Assembly: GCA_945881865.1 (NCBI GenBank)
Contig: CAMCVK010000010.1
Coordinates: forward strand, 62,001 to 126,000
Direction: 5' to 3'
DNA: 64,000 bases
From: Fimbriimonas ginsengisoli Gsoil 348
Lineage (GTDB): Bacteria > Armatimonadota > Fimbriimonadia > Fimbriimonadales > Fimbriimonadaceae
Shown piece after piece: positions 36,625 through 45,806 of the stretch. The translations under genes and the position numbers were made by a program. Below the pieces are notes generated by a model. The model ran no database searches. It worked only from the letters and a program-made list of their open reading frames with translations, and was not told the DNA's origin. Position 1 is the stretch's first letter. Every line of letters starts with the position of its first letter.

Positions 36625-37839
36625 CTACTTCCTTGAGGTCGGCATCTGTTGCGTGATGCAGTGAATTCCGCCGCCGCCAAGGTTGATGGCTTCGGAGTCG
36701 ATCGCGATGATCTTGTAGCCGGGAAAAGCTTCCTTCAGAATCTGGAGCGCCTTCGCGTCCTTCGCCTTCAGACCGATGGGCCGCCCGGGCTTGTAGAACT
36801 TCGAGGTGATGATCTTCCCGTTCGAGATCAGGAAGTTGAGGTAGCTCGCCGCCTGAATCACCTTGATCGGCTTCCCTTTCGGAAACGGCTTCTTGGCGTA
36901 GTTGAGGTCCTTGATGTAGTCGTAAACGCCGTCCCCCGGAGACATCGTGGTGATCATGGGGTCTGGCACCGGCATCCGAATGATCTTGAGGTCCGGCGCG
37001 GCCCGCCGCAAGGTCCGCCAATTTTGCTCAAGCCGATTACGGCTCGCCCACGCGATCGGACTCTTCTGAGCGTCCTCAAGGGTCACCTCCGCGAGGAGAA
37101 CCGTGTCCACGTTCACGAATCGGGCTACGTTATCGACGTGGCCTCCGGTCGCGATGACCGTATAGACATCGCCGTCTTTCCCACCATCCAATGGGCCCAT
37201 GAAGGTCAGGTCATCTTCTAATCCACCGTGCGGCAACCAAATCACGCGATCTACACCAAGGTATCGCTTATGTTCGGTTTCTAGCTCCTCGCGAAGCTTG
37301 CCGGGGTTGCGCTGCTTCTCGACGCTTTCAACCACGATCATCGTCCCTTTGCCGTTGAACTCGCGGTTGCCGCCTTCCGAGATAATCGGCGCGTTGAGCA
37401 ACATCGTTGACGTGCCCCGAACCGCCTGACGGCCAAACTGCGCATCGACCGCGTCTTCCGCTTTTGACATCTGGTCGTTCACATCGGTATAGCCCCAATA
37501 GTTGAACTTGTAGGTCACCGGCTGCAACGTGCCATTCGGGTTTTTCACGAAGATCGGGCCGAAGTCGCGGGTCCAGATTTCGTTGTTCCCCGACAGGTGA
37601 AACCGAACGTGCGGCGCTTTGCCCAAAAACTTCGTTGCCTGCGCCAACTGGTTGGGCCGAACCAGCAAATCCACCTTGGTCTCCGGGCCGAGGGCGTGGA
37701 TCATCTCGCGCTGGACGGCGTGGACCGAGTAGCCGCGCTTGTTCTCGTAGGTCGCCCAAGACATCCAAACGCTCTCTTGAGGCTCCCACTCGGCCGGGAA
37801 CGTGCCAAACATGAACCAGCCTGCCAGCAACGGGATCAT
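36625..37839 (-). CDS. agmatine deiminase / peptidyl-arginine deiminase family enzyme
   Basis: A 404-residue PPAD/AguA-type guanidine-modifying enzyme. Landmarks: [44 protein letters not shown], and the catalytic Cys in [15 protein letters not shown] near the C-terminus. The full catalytic set (Asp, Glu, His, Cys) is present. Agmatine to N-carbamoylputrescine is the usual reaction for single-domain bacterial members. ATG 37839 shares ATGA with the dapL stop. An N-terminal hydrophobic start ([11 protein letters not shown]) is short and not a clear signal peptide. Confidence 0.87.
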
Positions 37840-39017
37840 GGAATCAGCCCGCTTGCCTGAATTCGGCGAACGGCCTCGGCGAATCGCTCGCCGTTCTGGT
37901 CTCCCTTCAATGTCAACGACATCCTAACGTATCCTTCTCCTTCCGTCCCGTACCCGTTTCCTGGGATCGCCACGATGTGCGCCTGCTTCAAAAGCGCGCC
38001 CGCAAACTCTGCGCTCGTCATATCGGTTCGCGGCACCTTCGCCCATACGTAGAACGCCGACTTCGGCTTGGTTACCGGCCAGCCGATCGCGTTGAGTCCG
38101 TCACACAGGGCATCGCGGCGCTTTTCGTACATCGCCAGCGTGTCGTCGTTGTTCAGGTTTTCCAGCGCGTACGCACCGGCTTGAGCCACGGCAGGAAACT
38201 GCTTGCTGTCGATGTTCGACTTTAGGCGCTGCAGGTTTTGTACAACCTGGGCGTTGCCAAGCGCAAAGCCAAGCCGCCAACCGGTCATGTTGTACATCTT
38301 GCTCAGCGAGTGGAATTCGATGGCGACATCCTTCGCCCCTTCCACTTGAAGCACCGTGGGGTTCACGAATCCGTCGTAGGCAACCGTTGCGTAGGCCATG
38401 TCGTTCACCAGGATGATGTCGTGATCGCGGCAGAATGCGACCGCGTCTTCATAGAACTCGCGGGTTGCGGTCGCTCCGGTTGGGTTGTGCGGGTAGCAAA
38501 CGTAGAACAGCTTTGCGCGGCGAGCGATGTCCGTCGGGATGTCGGCCAGCACCGGCAGCATGTCGTTTTCCGGTCGTAGCGGCGTCTCATGGACTTCTCC
38601 GCCGGCCATCAACGTGTTGACTTTGTAAACCGTGTAACCCGGGTTCGGCACGATGGAAACATCGCCGGGATCAATGTAGGTCCAGGCGAGGTGCGCGAGG
38701 CCCTCTTTGCTTCCGATGAGCTGAACGAACTCTTTTTTGGGATCGAGTTGCGGCCCAAAGGTGCGGCCGTACCACGAGGCGGCGGCGTCGAGGAAAGGCT
38801 CCCAGCCACGGGCGGTCTCGTCGTACCGGTGGGTTTCCGGGTCGTGCGCGGCTTCGGTGAGCGCATTGATGACCGCCGTCGGGGTCGGAAGGTCCGGATC
38901 GCCGATTCCGAGGTCAATGATGTCGGCGCCGGAGGCCACGGCCTCGGCCTTTATGCGGGCGATTTCGGCAAAAAGGTAGGGCGGAATCAGTTCCAGACGC
39001 TGCGCGCGGGCGGGCAT
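37836..39017 (-). CDS. dapL: LL-diaminopimelate aminotransferase-type class I aminotransferase
   Basis: A 393-residue fold-type I PLP enzyme. N-terminal IPPYLFAEIARIKAEA, IDLGIGDPDLPTP, LIGSKEGLAHL, YPHNPTGA, and the PLP lysine in EFHSLSKMYNMTGWRLGFA match the DapL group, which converts tetrahydrodipicolinate directly to LL-DAP for lysine and peptidoglycan. Related aminotransferases with other substrates share these motifs, so substrate is likely but not certain. ATG 39017 follows TACCCT by 8 bases. It heads the ispG operon. Confidence 0.83.
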   Translation of the reverse strand: MPARAQRLELIPPYLFAEIARIKAEAVASGADIIDLGIGDPDLPTPTAVINALTEAAHDPETHRYDETARGWEPFLDAAASWYGRTFGPQLDPKKEFVQLIGSKEGLAHLAWTYIDPGDVSIVPNPGYTVYKVNTLMAGGEVHETPLRPENDMLPVLADIPTDIARRAKLFYVCYPHNPTGATATREFYEDAVAFCRDHDIILVNDMAYATVAYDGFVNPTVLQVEGAKDVAIEFHSLSKMYNMTGWRLGFALGNAQVVQNLQRLKSNIDSKQFPAVAQAGAYALENLNNDDTLAMYEKRRDALCDGLNAIGWPVTKPKSAFYVWAKVPRTDMTSAEFAGALLKQAHIVAIPGNGYGTEGEGYVRMSLTLKGDQNGERFAEAVRRIQASGLIP

Positions 39018-39025
39018 ATGCCCGG

Positions 39026-39049
39026 AGGGTACCCGCGATCTGGTACCTT
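39026..39049. promoter_or_regulatory. back-to-back GGTACC -10 boxes for dapL and tRNA-Pro
   Basis: On the minus strand TACCCT (39026-39031) is 8 bases before the dapL ATG. On the plus strand TACCTT (39044-39049) is 11 bases before the tRNA, allowing a 5' leader of about 4-5 bases. The -10 boxes are only 12 bases apart, so the two polymerases would compete. Confidence 0.62.
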
Positions 39050-39060
39050 TCTGGGGTCGG

Positions 39061-39137
39061 CGGGGTGTAGCTCAGCTTGGTAGAGCGCGTGCTTTGGGAG
39101 CATGAGGCCGCAGGTTCGAATCCTGTCGCCCCGACCA
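39061..39137 (+). tRNA. tRNA-Pro(TGG)
   Basis: A 77-base cloverleaf with encoded CCA. Acceptor stem CGGGGTG / CGCCCCG plus A; D stem GCTC/GAGC; anticodon stem CGTGC/GCATG around loop TTTGGGA (anticodon TGG); T stem GCAGG/CCTGT with loop TTCGAAT. Decodes CCA and likely other Pro codons by wobble. Confidence 0.97.
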
Positions 39138-39159
39138 CTTTCCCTCTTCCTTCCCGGCC

Positions 39160-39573
39160 ATGCTGCAAACCGACCAACTGGCTAGATCGCTGGAAACGTT
39201 GCGGTACTCGCTGCGACATTTCAAGGAATCCGAACCAGGGTCGGTCGAAAACGAGGTCTTCCGCAACGCCGTCATCAAGGGGTTTGAGCTTTCCTTGGAG
39301 ACATCGGCAAAACTTTTGCGCAAACGGCTGGCCGATTACGTCGCGCAGCCCGGCGCCGTCCATTCGCTGCCATTCAAAGAGGTGTTTCGTCGGGCCGCCG
39401 GTTTCGGGATTCTGGCGCCCGACGCCGTCGAGCGCTGGTTCGAGTATCGAGACAACCGCAACGATACGGCGCATGACTACGGCGAGAGGTTTGCCGAGGA
39501 AACGGTGCGCTTGCTGCCCGCGTTCCTCACCGACGCCGAATCGCTTTTGACCACCCTTCAACATGAACCTTGA
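39160..39573 (+). CDS. hepT: HEPN-domain RNase toxin (HepT/HI0074 family)
   Basis: A 137-residue helical HEPN protein. The RX4HXY active site is R-N-D-T-A-H-D-Y near residues 99-106, preceded by FEYRDN. The family forms the toxin of type VII (HEPN/MNT) toxin-antitoxin pairs, where the Tyr of the motif is AMPylated by the partner. IKGFELSLETSAKLLRK resembles the nucleotidyltransferase substrate-binding group (HI0074). It starts 22 bases after tRNA-Pro with no visible promoter or ribosome site of its own. Overlaps the antitoxin gene by 11 bases. Confidence 0.82.
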   Translation: MLQTDQLARSLETLRYSLRHFKESEPGSVENEVFRNAVIKGFELSLETSAKLLRKRLADYVAQPGAVHSLPFKEVFRRAAGFGILAPDAVERWFEYRDNRNDTAHDYGERFAEETVRLLPAFLTDAESLLTTLQHEP

Positions 39574-39862
39574 CCTGCCCGAGCGCTGGCGCGCCGAAAT
39601 CGCGCAGATTTTGGTCCGGCATCTGCCCGCGGCGGAAGTCTTGGCGTTTGGAAGCCGGGTCACCGGTAAGAATCATCCAGGAAGCGACCTGGACTTGGCC
39701 GTCCTCGGCGGCACGCCGGCCGGACTTGCCGCCGCGAGATCGGCACTCGCCGAGAGCAACGTGCCGATCTCGGTGGATTTGCTGGCTTACGAGAGTCTTC
39801 CAGAAAGCTATCGAGAAGAGATCGACCGGTCCGCCGCTCCCTTCCCGCTCAACCCCGAATAG
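39563..39862 (+). CDS. mntA: minimal nucleotidyltransferase antitoxin (MntA/HI0073 family)
   Basis: A 99-residue MNT protein with the GSX10DXD motif complete: GSRVTGKNHPGSDLDLAV near residues 32-49, and a third carboxylate likely in VDLLAYE. In studied pairs MNT transfers AMP from ATP to the HEPN Tyr and so silences the RNase. Length is normal for the minimal group. Starts within the hepT end (ATG 39563), so the two are translated together. Confidence 0.85.
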   Translation: MNLDLPERWRAEIAQILVRHLPAAEVLAFGSRVTGKNHPGSDLDLAVLGGTPAGLAAARSALAESNVPISVDLLAYESLPESYREEIDRSAAPFPLNPE

Positions 39863-39868
39863 GCCGCG

Positions 39869-40054
39869 TCAAGTCCATACTTGGCGCCAGAAACTGCTGT
39901 TATACAGATCAAACTCGGCGGTGGTGCCGTCGGCAAAGGTGAGAATCCCCTTTCCTTCCGCGTCGTAGTCCCCCGTCGCGGGGCACAGAGGATCGTTCAC
40001 ATTCTCAACTCGAATCGAACCGGTGAGATCCGGATTACTGAGCCAGCGACGGGC
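39869..40054 (-). pseudogene. frameshifted 3' remnant next to the lipoprotein gene
   Basis: A minus-strand frame of 61 codons between a TAG and a TGA reads like a real protein end (ILTFADGTTAEFDLYNSSFW) but has no ATG and sits in a different frame from the upstream lipoprotein, separated from it by a stop codon. It may be the original C-terminus of that protein or of a lost gene. Confidence 0.45.
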
Positions 40055-40068
40055 CTATCTGGCCACGT

Positions 40069-40587
40069 TCACCCCCGCCGAAGCACGAACTGAACCGTCG
40101 TTTGGCCGTCGGACGAGGCATCCTGGATGACAATCAGGTCCTGGGCACTCAGATCACCGGGCTGCAGAAACATGGCATCGTTCCCGCCGGAACTGCGTTG
40201 CTCAACGCCTTGCCCATCTTTCTCGACGATCTTGGAGTCGTCGATCATCCCCTTATTGTCAATCGTGACAGGCCCCGTCCAGACCATTGTCGCCGAACCA
40301 AACTTGAACACGCCGTCCACTTCGCCGCCTTCGGAAACCTTCATCGCGCCCGAGAAGATCATCCCCTGAGTCTGGAATTCGGCACCCGATCCAGACATGA
40401 GGGTCGACCGCACGTTCGACTTTTCCGGATCCATAACCCAGGTTCCGGCGAGGCGACTCTGCATGTCAGAGTTGGCCGCCACGGCGGTCCCCGTCTCGGA
40501 CGCATTGCACCCCGCCACCGCGAACATGACGATCGCGATGAGCAGGCATGTGACGAGTCGGAGCGAAGCGGTTGAGGTGAGTCCCAT
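40069..40587 (-). CDS. lipoprotein of unknown function
   Basis: A 172-residue protein with a lipoprotein signal and lipobox (FAVAGC, Cys about residue 27). The mature part has GTWVMDPEKSNVRS, which recalls short 'lipocalin-like' proteins that quote a drug-sized ligand pocket, and then beta-rich sequence. ATG 40587 lies 6 bases after a TAGTTT box. The C-terminus (VQFVLRRG) ends shortly before a coding-like remnant in another frame, so the gene may be frameshifted. Confidence 0.65.
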   Translation of the reverse strand: MGLTSTASLRLVTCLLIAIVMFAVAGCNASETGTAVAANSDMQSRLAGTWVMDPEKSNVRSTLMSGSGAEFQTQGMIFSGAMKVSEGGEVDGVFKFGSATMVWTGPVTIDNKGMIDDSKIVEKDGQGVEQRSSGGNDAMFLQPGDLSAQDLIVIQDASSDGQTTVQFVLRRG

Positions 40588-40644
40588 GCAAACAAACTAC
40601 ATAGGACCCAAAGACCTCGACTTGATCTAAGTCACGAACTGGCT

Positions 40645-43206
40645 TCAGTCCATGTCTTCGGTGCGCCAGCGCGCGCCCGGGGTTGCTGGTCGCGGCACGT
40701 TTGCGCCCTTGATCGAACCCCAAAGGATGTCGTTCAGCGCTTCGTCGGGCAGCGACTCTTCCACCAGCGCGTTCAGGAGGCGAGCGCTGTCGGCCGCACG
40801 GAACGAACGCGGTGTGTTGAGTTCCGCAACAATTTCCCTCGCCGGCAGGATCGCCTTGTAAGGCTCAGCATTCACCGGCTTCTTGTCGAAAACGTCCATC
40901 GGGAAGGCGGTCGCGATGTACTGGTTCCACGGCTTGGCCCCGAGCAACCGCGACATCGTCAGCAGCATCGAGTCCGTGTTGTAGAACCGGCTGTCCAAGA
41001 AGTTGCGCTTGTTGTAGGCGCTCACGACGAAAGCGATCGACCGGTGCGCGTCCACGTGGTCAAAGCCCGCCTGCGCGTCATCCTCCAGGATGAAGATTGC
41101 CGTTTTCTTCCAAAGTGGACCGTTGCTCACCGCCTCTACGAGCTGCCCAACCGCGTAGTCGTTGTCCGCCACCATAGCGCGAGGGCTGTAGGTTCCGGGG
41201 GCCGTTCCCGAAGTATGGTCGCGGCCAAGCCGCAGAATCATAAAATTCGGCACCTTGCCACTTGCCAGGAGACGCTTGTAATCTCGCAAGAACGAGGTCA
41301 TTCGAGAAGGATCCTTCATCTTGCCGAAGGTGGCCATCTGCCGCGGCGCGGGGTCAAGACCGTACTTCACCCACGCTTCGCTGTCGGCATAGTTCATGTC
41401 ATATCGTCGGAACGTGGGCTCGGTATGGTCGACAAGTGCCTTCTTCGTTGGGGCATTGTCCGGCTCAAAGCGAGTGTCACGCTTGTCGGCGTCGCCGCCT
41501 TGGAAGCTGAGGAAGCTGCCGTAGTTGCGGTAAGACAAACCTGCCTTGGCCATGGCATCCCAAATGTAGCCGCCGCTGGCGGTGGCTACGTCGCGAACGC
41601 CTTGCATATCGACCGCAACGCCATTGTTCGTGCCTTCAAAGTCGTACTGGCGACCGCGGCCCGCATAGTTGTAAATGCTGTTCCGCGACGTGTATTCGTT
41701 CGCCGCGCCGGAAGTCGACCAGTTCCAGCCGTCTGCCGAGACCTCGGCGCAGACGTGGAAGTTATCGAGCTGAACGAATCGCTCAGCCAGCGCGTGCTGG
41801 TTCGGCGTGACTTCCCGACCAAAGAGAACCAGCGAAGGCTCGCCGTTGCCCCGCGGCAGGCCCCCCAGAACCTGGTCGTAGGTTCGGTTTTCCTTGATGA
41901 CGTAGATGACGTGCTCAATCGGTGGCTTCACGAACTGCTTCTGAACCGCGTTCAAGATTGGCTTGGTTGCCCGGTTCAGCCGGAGCACCTGCTCGGTGTG
42001 GTCTTCCAGACCGGTCAGCGCCTTATCGACATCAACCAGCGTCACGGCACCCTCGATGATGTTGAGGACGTACTGTCCGCGATCGCCAACTTCCTTGCCG
42101 TTCGGGTTCTTCGCGTTCACGCCCTTGCCGTTCAAAACGAAGAGCCGCTTGCCGTTTTGGGTGAGAACCGTAGAGGTGGGGTACCAGCCGGCAGGCAAGT
42201 AGCCTTTCAGTTCGCCAGCTGAAGGATCGATCACCGCAACCGCGTTCATGTCCGCCACGGCAACGAATGCCAGCTTATCGGTGATGAAGCTGCTTCCAAG
42301 CGGGGTGAATCCGCCGAGTCCGCGCAGGGCCGCCGGTCGGATGAGCGTCGTCTTTTCGACCTTGCCCGACCCGGTGTTGATCCAGCTGAGCGTGTCGCTG
42401 TTCGAATTGCTCACCAAAACGTGCTTGCCATCTTTGCTGGCCGTGATGTAAGACGGGTTTTCGCCGGTTCGGATGGTCTTCTGCGCACCGGTTTTCGGGT
42501 CAAGTTGAACCACAACGCCGTCTCGCTCGCAGGTGATGAAGAGCGATCCGCCCGCGAGAGCCGCGCCGAAGGGGAATCCCGGCAGCTCAATGGTTTGCTT
42601 CAGCTCGCCGGTTTTTCGGTCGAATCGGGCCACCGCACCTTTCAGCTTCGTGTCGGCGGTGGCCGTGTTGATGACCGCCCAAACACTATCGGTGTCAACC
42701 GCAACGCCGGCGACCGGATTCGGCGAGGGCTTGCCGGGGCAAGAAAAGTCGCGAACGAGGGCGAGCTCGCCCGTCGCCGAAACGCTATATTCGGAAACTT
42801 TCTCTTCCGAGCCGCGCGAGGCGAAAAGCCGGGTGCTGCCATCAGCTTCGGTTCCCACGGCGAGGCCGTAGTACAGGCCAATCTTTCCTCGGCCACCAAA
42901 GTCGAGCTTGCTGGCGACGCTACCGTCCGACGTTCGGAAGACCGTAAGTTGCTGCCGGTGCCCGGCGTTGGTCGAGATCATGAACTTGCCGTCTGGCGTG
43001 CTGATCGCGTTGACCGGGAAACTGCCAACTCCGACCGGCGACATGCCTGGAATATTCAGCAGCGGCTCGACTGGCTTTCCGGTGCTGGCGTACTCCCCCT
43101 TCGCACCCGCTTGCCGCCGCGCAAGCGCTGAGTCAACGCTGACTCCAATTCCAATGATTGCCGCAAGCGCGACGGCCCCGAAGGTGATGACTTTGTTTCG
43201 CCCCAT
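40645..43206 (-). CDS. YVTN-type beta-propeller fused to a phosphoesterase (phospholipase C / acid phosphatase family)
   Basis: An 853-residue exported protein. N-terminal hydrophobic segment (VITFGAVALAAIIGIGVSVD), then a propeller of about 350 residues (AVAVIDPSAGELKGYLPAGW, YITASKDGKHVLVSNSNSD). The C-terminal half is a metal-dependent phosphoesterase of the AcpA/PLC type: VIYVIKENRTYDQVLGGL with the nucleophile region, and AIFILEDDAQAGFDHVDAHRS with metal ligands. Similar fusions are common in environmental bacteria and probably release phosphate outside the cell. ATG 43206 is 7 bases after TAGGCT; the frame to 43236 is not used. Confidence 0.83.
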   Translation of the reverse strand: MGRNKVITFGAVALAAIIGIGVSVDSALARRQAGAKGEYASTGKPVEPLLNIPGMSPVGVGSFPVNAISTPDGKFMISTNAGHRQQLTVFRTSDGSVASKLDFGGRGKIGLYYGLAVGTEADGSTRLFASRGSEEKVSEYSVSATGELALVRDFSCPGKPSPNPVAGVAVDTDSVWAVINTATADTKLKGAVARFDRKTGELKQTIELPGFPFGAALAGGSLFITCERDGVVVQLDPKTGAQKTIRTGENPSYITASKDGKHVLVSNSNSDTLSWINTGSGKVEKTTLIRPAALRGLGGFTPLGSSFITDKLAFVAVADMNAVAVIDPSAGELKGYLPAGWYPTSTVLTQNGKRLFVLNGKGVNAKNPNGKEVGDRGQYVLNIIEGAVTLVDVDKALTGLEDHTEQVLRLNRATKPILNAVQKQFVKPPIEHVIYVIKENRTYDQVLGGLPRGNGEPSLVLFGREVTPNQHALAERFVQLDNFHVCAEVSADGWNWSTSGAANEYTSRNSIYNYAGRGRQYDFEGTNNGVAVDMQGVRDVATASGGYIWDAMAKAGLSYRNYGSFLSFQGGDADKRDTRFEPDNAPTKKALVDHTEPTFRRYDMNYADSEAWVKYGLDPAPRQMATFGKMKDPSRMTSFLRDYKRLLASGKVPNFMILRLGRDHTSGTAPGTYSPRAMVADNDYAVGQLVEAVSNGPLWKKTAIFILEDDAQAGFDHVDAHRSIAFVVSAYNKRNFLDSRFYNTDSMLLTMSRLLGAKPWNQYIATAFPMDVFDKKPVNAEPYKAILPAREIVAELNTPRSFRAADSARLLNALVEESLPDEALNDILWGSIKGANVPRPATPGARWRTEDMD

Positions 43207-43294
43207 AGTTGGGAGCCTACAGAGTCTCCAACGCATTAGGCAATTGTTTTTCGCAATTCTCGCTTCCCGTTAAGAATCCTTAACAATTGGGAGG

Positions 43295-44110
43295 CTAGTG
43301 AGCCGTTTTCGGTCCGGCGAGCGCGCCTCCCACCATCTCGATTCCACCCGGCACGACCTTCCCGCATTCGCTTCCCGTCTCCGCGTCCGCGAGGTGCGCC
43401 TCGGTGCCGTCGAACCTCAGAAGAGGATGGTAGAACTCCCAGGCTTCGGTGCTGTTCCCCGTGATGTAGTGGGCGATGAGTGACCGGCGGAAGCGGGTGT
43501 CCGACCGATTTGGCCCGCTTCCGTGAATCAGATTTCCGTGGAAAAACAAAACGTCGCCGGCTTTCATCAACATCGGCACCGCTTGATAGCCGTCGGGAAC
43601 AGGAACCTGCTCGCCGGTGAAGCTCTCCTTTCGGTCGGCGGGAATCGGGCAAAGAATAGGCAGGCGGTGTGACCCGGGAACCACGCTCATGCAGCCGTTC
43701 TCCTCATCGCAATCGTCCACCGCAAGCCAGCCCGCAACGCAGGTTCCCGGCGCAGCGCGCAGATAGGCTTGGTCCTGATGCAACGCCTGACCGCGTGCAT
43801 GCGGCGGCTTAAAGTAGAACATCGTTTGCGCGCCGAACGGCTCTTCGTCCAAGAAGGTGGACAGAAGCTGCTGCATCCGGGCATCCAGCAGGAACTCTAG
43901 CGACAGTGCATCGCGGCGATGCGGATGGATGATGCGCGGGAACTGCGCCAGCGGATCTTGCCCCGTTTGATCGATTCGATCGAAGTCCTCGCGACGGTCC
44001 GAAGCGTTCCATTCCATGAAATGGTCGCGAATACGCGCGATTTCCTCGGCCGAGAACACGCCCCGGGCCAGGACAAACCCGTTTTCTTCCCACTGTTGCC
44101 GCGCCGTCAT
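43295..44110 (-). CDS. phytanoyl-CoA dioxygenase (PhyH) family Fe(II)/2-oxoglutarate oxygenase, copy 1
   Basis: A 271-residue double-stranded beta-helix oxygenase. The iron triad is HxD in ALHQDQAYL plus the distal His in GNLIHGSGPN, and an Arg of the 2-oxoglutarate site in RRSLIAHY. It would hydroxylate an organic substrate using Fe(II), O2 and 2-oxoglutarate. It is the last of a run that includes a second PhyH and a sugar ABC importer, so the substrate may be what that importer brings in. A TACATC box is 7 bases before ATG. Confidence 0.82.
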   Translation of the reverse strand: MTARQQWEENGFVLARGVFSAEEIARIRDHFMEWNASDRREDFDRIDQTGQDPLAQFPRIIHPHRRDALSLEFLLDARMQQLLSTFLDEEPFGAQTMFYFKPPHARGQALHQDQAYLRAAPGTCVAGWLAVDDCDEENGCMSVVPGSHRLPILCPIPADRKESFTGEQVPVPDGYQAVPMLMKAGDVLFFHGNLIHGSGPNRSDTRFRRSLIAHYITGNSTEAWEFYHPLLRFDGTEAHLADAETGSECGKVVPGGIEMVGGALAGPKTAH

Positions 44111-44171: not shown

Positions 44172-44975
44172 TTAGCTTCGAGACCAGATCAGCGGATTTA
44201 TCACGGGGTCGTTGAGTACGTCCCCGACCTTAAGCCCAGCAGCGTAGGCTTCGGGCAAAACGTTCCGCTCGCCGTTGAACGTGCTGCCATCCGGCATGTA
44301 CGCACACGTCATCGCGCGGCGCGGTCGGTTCGTCATGTTGGCCCCGGCGCCGTGCGCGGTGAGGCCGTTATGTACCACCGCCGAGCCCGCTCTTGCCGGG
44401 CACGCCACCGGTTCGATCTCCCGCCATTCGGGATACACCCGAAACAGGTCGGCTTGGTTGTGTCCAATGCCGACGTTCTCGAATCGGGCCAGCTTGTGGG
44501 TGCCGGGCAGATACCAGAGCGCGCCGTTGGCAAGCGTGGCGTCGTCGAGTGCTACCCAGATCGACAACGAATCGCGCGACGAGAACGACCAGTACGGGTT
44601 GTCCAAATGCCAGGCCGTCGCGTTGCCAAACGGCGGCTTAATCAGCGCCTGATCGTGCCAAATCCGGATGCCATCAACGCCCGCGAGCGTGCCGACGACC
44701 TCTCCCAGGCGGGGATCGTTCATCAGCGTGTGCATGCCTTCGTGGGTGTCGGCCAGCTTCACGCACTGGGTGAAAACATGCGCGTAGTAGCTGTTCGGGT
44801 CACCTTGGTTGGTCAGGTTCCAGCCTTCCACCTTCTCGGCCAGCCGGTGCGCGACCGCTTCCTCGGTGATAAACCGCCAGATCTCAAGCTCTTCCGGGCT
44901 CAGAAAGTCTTCGAGAACGATGAATCCGTTCTCCTGGTATTCGGCAATCTGCTCGGCGGTGAGGGCAGTCTTCAC
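44172..44975 (-). CDS. phytanoyl-CoA dioxygenase (PhyH) family oxygenase, copy 2
   Basis: A 267-residue relative of the adjacent PhyH. HxD in AWHLDNPYW and the distal His in LTAHGAGANMTNRPRRA with the 2-oxoglutarate Arg. GTG 44975 is 9 bases after the permease stop; TAAGCT overlaps that stop and sits 6 bases before GTG, so it may also have its own leaderless transcript. The two PhyH copies are clearly diverged and presumably act on different or successive positions of a substrate. Confidence 0.83.
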   Translation of the reverse strand: MKTALTAEQIAEYQENGFIVLEDFLSPEELEIWRFITEEAVAHRLAEKVEGWNLTNQGDPNSYYAHVFTQCVKLADTHEGMHTLMNDPRLGEVVGTLAGVDGIRIWHDQALIKPPFGNATAWHLDNPYWSFSSRDSLSIWVALDDATLANGALWYLPGTHKLARFENVGIGHNQADLFRVYPEWREIEPVACPARAGSAVVHNGLTAHGAGANMTNRPRRAMTCAYMPDGSTFNGERNVLPEAYAAGLKVGDVLNDPVINPLIWSRS

Positions 44976-44984
44976 CCGCCCAGC

Positions 44985-45806
44985 TTAACCCTTTACGCCG
45001 CCAAGCATGATGCCTTTCACGAAGAATTTCTGGCCGGCGATGAACAGCAGAATCAGCGGGATGATGCTCATCACGCTGGCCGCCATGATCAGGTTGGTCT
45101 GCCGACCGTTCACGCTGTCGAAGTACATCATCCCGATCGGCAGCGTGCGCAGGTGGTCGCTTTTCACCAAAATCAGTGGCCAGAAGAACGAGCCGTAGCT
45201 GCCCATGAAGGTGAAAATTCCGAGCGTCGCCAAGCCCGGCTTGCAGAGCGGCATGACCACGTCCCAGAAGATCTGCAAAGGCTTTGCGCCGTCGATCTCG
45301 GCCGCTTCGTCCAGCGAAGGATGGATCGACATCATGAACTGCCGCAACATGAACGTGCCGAACGCACTGAACGCGGCCGGAACGATCAACCCGGTGTAGG
45401 AATCCAGTAGCCGCAACTCAACCATCAGGCTGAAGTTCGGGATCATCGTGACCAGGCCGGGGATCATCATCGTCGCCAGATAAAGCCGGAAGATGCTGTC
45501 GCGGCCGGGCCATTGAATCCGAGCGAACGAGTAGGCCGCCATTGAGCTCGTGACCAGCGTCAAGAACGTCACCCATGCCGCTATGAAGGCACTGTTGAAG
45601 TAATACTGGGCGTACTTGATCTGCCGGAAGACTTCGGCGTAGTTCTCCGGGTGCCAGCTGGTCGGCCACAGGTTCGGGCTTTCGACGTCGGCGAGCTCCT
45701 TGAAGCTGGCCAGCACCATCCAGATGAACGGCATCAGCGCCATCACCGAGAGCAAGACCAGCGCGATGTGTGGCCCCAGGTTCAACTTTCGCTTGCGAAC
45801 GGCCAT
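44985..45806 (-). CDS. carbohydrate ABC transporter permease, MalG type
   Basis: A 273-residue inner-membrane permease with six helices. The EAA loop is EAAEIDGAKPLQIFWDVVMPLCKPGL near residues 180-206. It pairs with the MalF-type permease upstream (ATG overlapping its stop by one base). No ATPase of the MalK type lies in the window, so a shared ATPase elsewhere is expected. Part of an import operon with a solute-binding protein and two PhyH oxygenases. Confidence 0.9.
   Translation of the reverse strand: MAVRKRKLNLGPHIALVLLSVMALMPFIWMVLASFKELADVESPNLWPTSWHPENYAEVFRQIKYAQYYFNSAFIAAWVTFLTLVTSSMAAYSFARIQWPGRDSIFRLYLATMMIPGLVTMIPNFSLMVELRLLDSYTGLIVPAAFSAFGTFMLRQFMMSIHPSLDEAAEIDGAKPLQIFWDVVMPLCKPGLATLGIFTFMGSYGSFFWPLILVKSDHLRTLPIGMMYFDSVNGRQTNLIMAASVMSIIPLILLFIAGQKFFVKGIMLGGVKG

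Follow-up and report, generated by a model that had tools for sequence, protein, structure and literature searches.

The gene pair behind tRNA-Pro

We analysed a stretch of 64,000 nucleotides (nt) from the Fimbriimonas ginsengisoli Gsoil 348 assembly GCA_945881865.1 (contig CAMCVK010000010.1, positions 62,001 to 126,000 of the forward strand; hereafter the window), in which a tRNA-Pro gene is closely followed by a HEPN toxin-like gene and an MNT nucleotidyltransferase antitoxin-like gene, all on the plus strand. The tRNA gene (anticodon TGG; 39061-39137) was recognised by ARAGORN and by Rfam (RF00005, 66.1 bits) and encodes its CCA end at 39135-39137. A spacer of 22 nt (CTTTCCCTCTTCCTTCCCGGCC; 39138-39159), 20 of them pyrimidines, separates it from the HEPN gene (39160-39573; 137 amino acids (aa)), whose ATG position is supported by the N-termini of eight relatives, and the MNT frame (39563-39862; 99 aa) overlaps the end of the HEPN frame by 11 nt. 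The RX4HXY motif of the HEPN protein (residues 100-107, with R100, H105 and Y107) and the GSX10DXD motif of the MNT protein (residues 30-44, with G30, S31, D42 and D44) were both intact in the translated frames. The coordinates, the 22-nt gap, the pair and the two perfect motifs reported in a first-pass annotation of this DNA were thus confirmed. Among the 581 open frames of at least 60 aa in the window, RX4HXY occurred in 10 and GSX10DXD only in the MNT frame; RX4HXY alone is therefore weak evidence, and the identities are decided by the profiles and the pairing.

The HEPN protein scored 69.9 bits against PF08780 (NTase_sub_bind, HI0074-like; cut-off 31.8) and belongs to that family, while its 53.7 bits against TIGR01987, the HI0074 subfamily proper, fell just below the cut-off of 55.8, which makes it a divergent relative of HI0074 rather than a TIGR01987 member. 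The MNT protein matched PF01909 with 37.2 bits (cut-off 21), so that the PF08780 gene has the adjacent MNT gene expected of such a pair. The best matches among solved sequences were HI0074 (1jog; E 7.9e-11) for HEPN and HI0073 (1no5; E 1.5e-9) for MNT. A predicted HEPN model (pLDDT 91.4) was closest to HI0074 (1jog) with a Z score of 17.9 and a root-mean-square deviation of 1.9 over 132 residues, consistent with an HI0074-like helical fold. The Z scores were 16.6 against the Legionella HEPN, 14.7 against HepT (6m6w), and 12.3-13.3, poorer than for HI0074, against chains 7ae2, 7ae6, 7ae8 and 7ae9, which we take to be Aphanizomenon HepT. An assignment to the type VII HepT/MntA systems was rejected by the scores for PF01934 (11.9 bits, cut-off 23.5), NF047751 (15.2, cut-off 60) and NF047752 (36.7, cut-off 60). 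The pair is a PF08780-type (HI0074/HI0073-like) HEPN-MNT module, divergent from HI0074/HI0073, and not HepT/MntA.

Compared with known systems, HI0074/HI0073 of Haemophilus influenzae (1jog/1no5) gave the top sequence match for both proteins and the top fold match for HEPN, although the window HEPN was only 23-24% identical to HI0074 in fold alignments. The Legionella pneumophila pair lpg2920/lpg2921 (8xdj, 8xeh, 8yuf), as described in the passages of PMC11586414 available to us, shares RX4HXY and the same fold and has a gene overlap of 8 bp versus 11 nt here; unlike for the window pair, those passages mention no link to a tRNA gene. HepT/MntA of Shewanella (PF01934; PMC7641770, likewise in part) shares the HEPN fold, both motifs and the two-gene organisation but belongs to another Pfam family. 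An anti-phage library gave weak matches only, the top one being PDC-S09 with 28.7 bits for the antitoxin, and these were not used.

Promoter, terminator and leader of the pair

We scored promoters with a -10 matrix trained on the regions upstream of the genome's remaining 44 tRNAs (consensus GGTATAATT), leaving out tRNA-Pro itself. The element GGTACCTTT at 39042-39050 (+) scored 8.4, which lies at the 99.98th percentile of the window, and was the only strong plus-strand -10 between position 39000 and the toxin ATG; it is the likely -10 of the tRNA-Pro promoter. No strong site was found within the tRNA and spacer (maximum 2.65), the spacer alone reaching -5.0. TANNNT was absent from 39061-39165, and a scan of 38500-40500 with the sigma-70 consensus returned no promoter on either strand, in agreement with the earlier statement that no promoter is visible between the CCA and the toxin ATG. 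A terminator in the spacer had been named there as a refuting observation; the sole terminator candidate in 38500-40500 was at 39589, inside the antitoxin gene, and none lay between tRNA and toxin.

Since a strong -10 was present only before the tRNA, and neither a terminator nor a spacer -10 was recognised, readthrough is the simplest source of an mRNA. We therefore regard the HEPN-MNT pair parked behind tRNA-Pro(TGG) as probably expressed by readthrough from the tRNA promoter followed by 3' processing. The first-pass suggestion that the pair may ride on the tRNA transcript thus stands as the most likely reading, with support at the level of sequence. Transcription would start at the tRNA promoter and continue through the unterminated CCA end over both genes, and maturation of the tRNA 3' end would leave an mRNA with a pyrimidine-rich leader of at most 22 nt that has no Shine-Dalgarno match. 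HEPN would be translated from that leader, and the 11-nt overlap would couple the translation of MNT to it. In characterised HEPN-MNT pairs, MNT is reported to AMPylate the RX4HXY tyrosine and thereby silence the HEPN RNase (PMC7641770 and PMC11586414, in the parts available); by analogy, the MNT of the window may adenylylate Y107 and silence the RNase, and the residues that this mechanism would use are present (Y107 in HEPN; G30, S31, D42 and D44 in MNT).

A second case was found in another genome of the same family (G013), where tRNA-Thr(CGT), a 14-nt gap, HEPN and MNT follow one another on the minus strand (locus L006, ~1170-2012). A strong -10 (score 10.7) precedes the tRNA there, and no score above 2.6 was reached behind the tRNA. 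If the window pair is expressed only by tRNA readthrough, the dose of toxin and antitoxin would track tRNA transcription and processing rather than a regulator of its own, which would be unusual as a mode of toxin-antitoxin control.

The first-pass annotation had also pointed to the missing ribosome site. The 22-nt leader does lack a Shine-Dalgarno match, but this is uninformative, since 14 of 51 gene starts in the window had a match of at least 4 nt versus ~24% of random positions, that is, without a clear excess (the starts were chosen mechanically and include one false frame, 39077-39550). The class I/II aminotransferase gene that diverges from tRNA-Pro (37836-39017, minus strand) has its own -10-like element (39025-39033, minus strand; score 7.0) 7 nt before its ATG, and GGTACC-type -10-like elements were seen close before start codons, for example at 39017(-) and 50080(+). 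Such elements so near to start codons suggest leaderless mRNAs.

Positions behind tRNA genes in related genomes

We surveyed PF08780 loci for neighbouring tRNAs in 233 loci, of which 224 were distinct after nine duplicates with identical core sequences had been dropped (among them L016, which comes from another genome than its counterpart L013). The sample covered 56 of the 61 listed loci of the own phylum, the eight genomes in which the nearest relatives lie, and, from one further class, one order and one phylum, a part of the listed matches, mainly the best-scoring ones; a full 300-nt flank was available upstream in 219 loci and downstream in 158. In 4 of the 224 loci (the window, L006, L195 and L288), the HEPN match had a same-strand tRNA no more than ~300 nt upstream, whereas an opposite-strand tRNA, or one within 300 nt downstream, was found in none. 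Because these distances run to the profile match, L006 appears at 68 nt even though just 14 nt separate its ATG from the tRNA; by gene start, the window and L006 were the two loci within 60 nt. Adjacency to tRNAs as a rule of the HEPN family was thus rejected, and two in 224 is little evidence of a preference for the tRNA slot. By a simple motif search, the MNT gene was 3' of HEPN in 175 loci, 5' in 38 and not seen in 11. As a control, the stretches fetched around 30 HepT-like loci of the own order, some of which end at contig ends, contained a tRNA in one, 1154 nt upstream.

The toxin was absent behind the tRNA-Pro(TGG) genes of all 19 other genomes of the genus that were examined (15 loci, L047-L061, and four, L033-L036), with flanks of ~1.4-1.5 kb for L033-L036 and only 534 nt behind the tRNA in L050, and conserved synteny between tRNA-Pro and HEPN was rejected on this ground. 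In the other genomes of the genus that carry PF08780 (G016, G025, G026 and G028), the stretch fetched around it contained no tRNA. In G033 (L052), the similarity at the DNA level breaks off 3 nt past the CCA and is picked up again ~32 nt later, inside a convergent phosphoesterase-type gene of 863 aa (window 40645-43236); the corresponding stretch of the window is ~1.5 kb long and consists of the pair, a 172-aa minus-strand open reading frame (ORF) and degraded-looking frames. Two further relatives (G020 and G027) have the divergent aminotransferase gene upstream as in the window and other ORFs downstream. Judging from the break in G033 and the differing downstream ORFs, the side behind tRNA-Pro(TGG) is a variable slot.

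In one scan of genome contigs, the nearest relatives of the pair were eight loci in metagenome-assembled genomes (MAGs) with 45-60% identity, assigned to Gammaproteobacteria (Thiotrichales, Thiotrichaceae, Thiomargarita and two unplaced), Desulfuromonadales, Akkermansia and Dehalococcoidia. In all eight, HEPN is followed directly by MNT, and their fetched flanks contained no tRNA. The nine-sequence alignment of this subfamily had 'ERWFEYRDNRN.TAH.YG' and K40 invariant. Loci fetched from the own phylum reached 39% identity at most (L129 and L115). PF08780 occurred in 12 of the 113 genomes of the own order, and at four places in the own genome, one of them beside a tRNA. This patchy occurrence, together with relatives in distant lineages, suggests that the pair was probably acquired horizontally. 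A phage or plasmid origin was rejected: phages gave no match, viral contigs no confirmed relative, and plasmids five records at 30-39% identity.

A comparable placement was found for an unrelated nuclease family. In the own genome, a GIY-YIG gene (G000 C1:157788-158039; L067/L320) starts 12 nt behind tRNA-Ala(TGC); like the window pair, it is a small nuclease-family gene just behind a tRNA CCA without a -10 in the spacer, but it encodes an unrelated protein, is a single gene and recurs in the order. Of the compact GIY-YIG loci listed for the order, 30 of 51 were fetched (L320-L349), and 10 of these 30 had a same-strand tRNA for Ala, Val or Pro ending 9-36 nt before the match, with a tRNA within 77-187 nt in four more and none on the other strand or downstream. 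The matrix found no -10 between the tRNA CCA and the gene at these tRNA-linked loci; in three of the ten cases (L324, L327 and L330), it found no strong -10 before the tRNA either. In a control class, that of G294, none of 30 GIY-YIG loci lay within 60 nt behind a tRNA; the profile matches are weaker there, and the pattern is therefore not established as general.

In this genome, it is ordinary for genes to lie close behind tRNAs. At least 4 of the 44 other tRNAs have a same-strand ORF that scores above a Pfam cut-off and is able to start within 60 nt, counting first possible starts (GIY-YIG at +12, GH2-like at +19, NuoB-like at +43 and ScpA-like at +55), and this is a lower bound because ten ORFs were hand-picked for the Pfam comparison. 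Separately, in locus L100 a 134-aa ORF without a Pfam match (647-1048) can start 10 nt behind tRNA-Ser(GGA) and is a possible trailer gene.

From these comparisons we tentatively propose, as a possibility rather than the likelier case, that in this order the slot behind the tRNA CCA is a berth open to repeated use by small nuclease genes that lack promoters and live off readthrough and 3' processing. Compact GIY-YIG genes would have filled it repeatedly, and PF08780 HEPN-MNT pairs would have moved in on at least two occasions (tRNA-Pro here and tRNA-Thr in G013); the HEPN pair would perhaps use the slot only occasionally. Cargo in such a berth would depend on an essential gene for its expression and be somewhat protected from deletion, and repeated use of the berth by GIY-YIG and HEPN genes within one order would suggest a general route of persistence for very small promoterless genes. 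The pair itself is ordinary and of interest for its unusual place; what merits following is that nuclease genes of this order use tRNA trailers. In the open-access literature, searched as titles and abstract openings, we found nothing on this arrangement under tRNA-linked toxin-antitoxin pairs, GIY-YIG genes beside tRNA genes or HEPN with tRNA 3' ends, none for leaderless genes in Fimbriimonas, and only a plant protocol on tRNA-mRNA dicistrons; the available part of a phylogenomic study of GIY-YIG (PMC1564403) held nothing on tRNA-gene neighbourhoods.

Competing explanations and the RNA target

Several observations weigh against the expression of an active toxin by readthrough from tRNA-Pro. 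The great majority of the surveyed PF08780 loci (222 of 224) have no tRNA in the 60 nt before their start, and the motif of the second case, L006, reads RNRTSPTY, with P in place of the H of RX4H, so that its HEPN may be inactive. Directly before HEPN, no obvious -10 was seen in the other three PF08780 copies of the own genome either, so that the absent match at the window pair is no strong argument that the pair depends on the tRNA; the matrix itself covers one promoter type, fitted on tRNAs. The catalytic site is a further point. To our knowledge, the Legionella HEPN is the closest relative that has been functionally characterised. In the available part of its description (PMC11586414), its reported in vitro substrates are 23S and 16S rRNA, which it cleaves by means of a Mg site formed by Q44 and E47, with negligible effects of the RX4HXY mutations R98A and H103A on RNase activity; gels for 5S rRNA and tRNA also belong to the methods of that study. 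In the window HEPN, E47 is kept as E43 and the needed Q44 is replaced by K40, as in all nine subfamily sequences. A Mg site of the Legionella type may accordingly be changed or absent, RNase activity is not certain and the catalytic details may differ.

The pair might instead have a promoter of its own, of a type that our scans did not catch (for another sigma factor, or inside the tRNA gene), and have the tRNA as a mere neighbour. That the own-genome copies elsewhere likewise lack a recognisable upstream -10 fits this explanation, as do L195 and L288, where inspection by eye showed a hairpin, accompanied by T-rich sequence, and a separate leader between tRNA and HEPN, so that independent expression near tRNAs probably exists. 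Since the spacer offers just 22 nt and scores -5.0, and 39061-39165 contains no TANNNT, we nevertheless consider an own promoter unlikely at this locus. Less probable still is a decaying insertion, that is, the remnant of an element integrated at the tRNA 3' end and left without effective expression. tRNA ends are classical integration sites, and the ~1.5 kb of extra DNA relative to G033 includes degraded-looking minus-strand frames; both frames of the pair and their motif residues are intact, however, their G+C contents at third codon positions (0.71 and 0.73) lie within the 0.61-0.86 range of the window genes, and the tRNA takes part in none of the direct repeats listed for 38000-42000. Readthrough from the tRNA-Pro promoter thus remains the preferred explanation.

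The first-pass annotation had further held that known HEPN toxins of this kind cleave the 3' ends of tRNAs and that the location is suggestive for this reason. Aphanizomenon HepT reportedly cuts tRNA 3' ends, but the window pair is of the PF08780 type, its Legionella relative is reported to cut rRNA, and the claim is not supported. Nor does the position point to a target, with nearly all PF08780 loci lying elsewhere and GIY-YIG genes using the same slot. A functional feedback, in which cleavage of tRNA-Pro or its precursor by HEPN would regulate either the HEPN mRNA or the supply of the tRNA, would make sense of a toxin gene physically linked to one tRNA. We consider it very improbable: rRNA is the reported substrate in the closest functionally characterised relative (PMC11586414, in part), the eight close relatives have no tRNA in their fetched flanks, the second case sits behind tRNA-Thr rather than tRNA-Pro, and the GIY-YIG genes occupy the slot behind Ala, Val and Pro tRNAs alike. 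Beyond proximity, nothing here supports tRNA-Pro as the HEPN target, and we do not favour it.

Downstream of the pair, folding predicted a 9-bp hairpin without a T run right after the antitoxin stop (39866-39887, plus strand), which is a possible 3' end or stabiliser. Degraded-looking coding remnants were seen on the minus strand at 39863-40090, between the antitoxin gene and the 172-aa ORF (40069-40587, minus strand), which has no Pfam match. Further downstream, two adjoining PhyH-type dioxygenase genes lie at 43295-44110 and 44172-44975 on the minus strand, and the frame that adjoins them at 44985-45806 looks, by eye, like an ABC permease.
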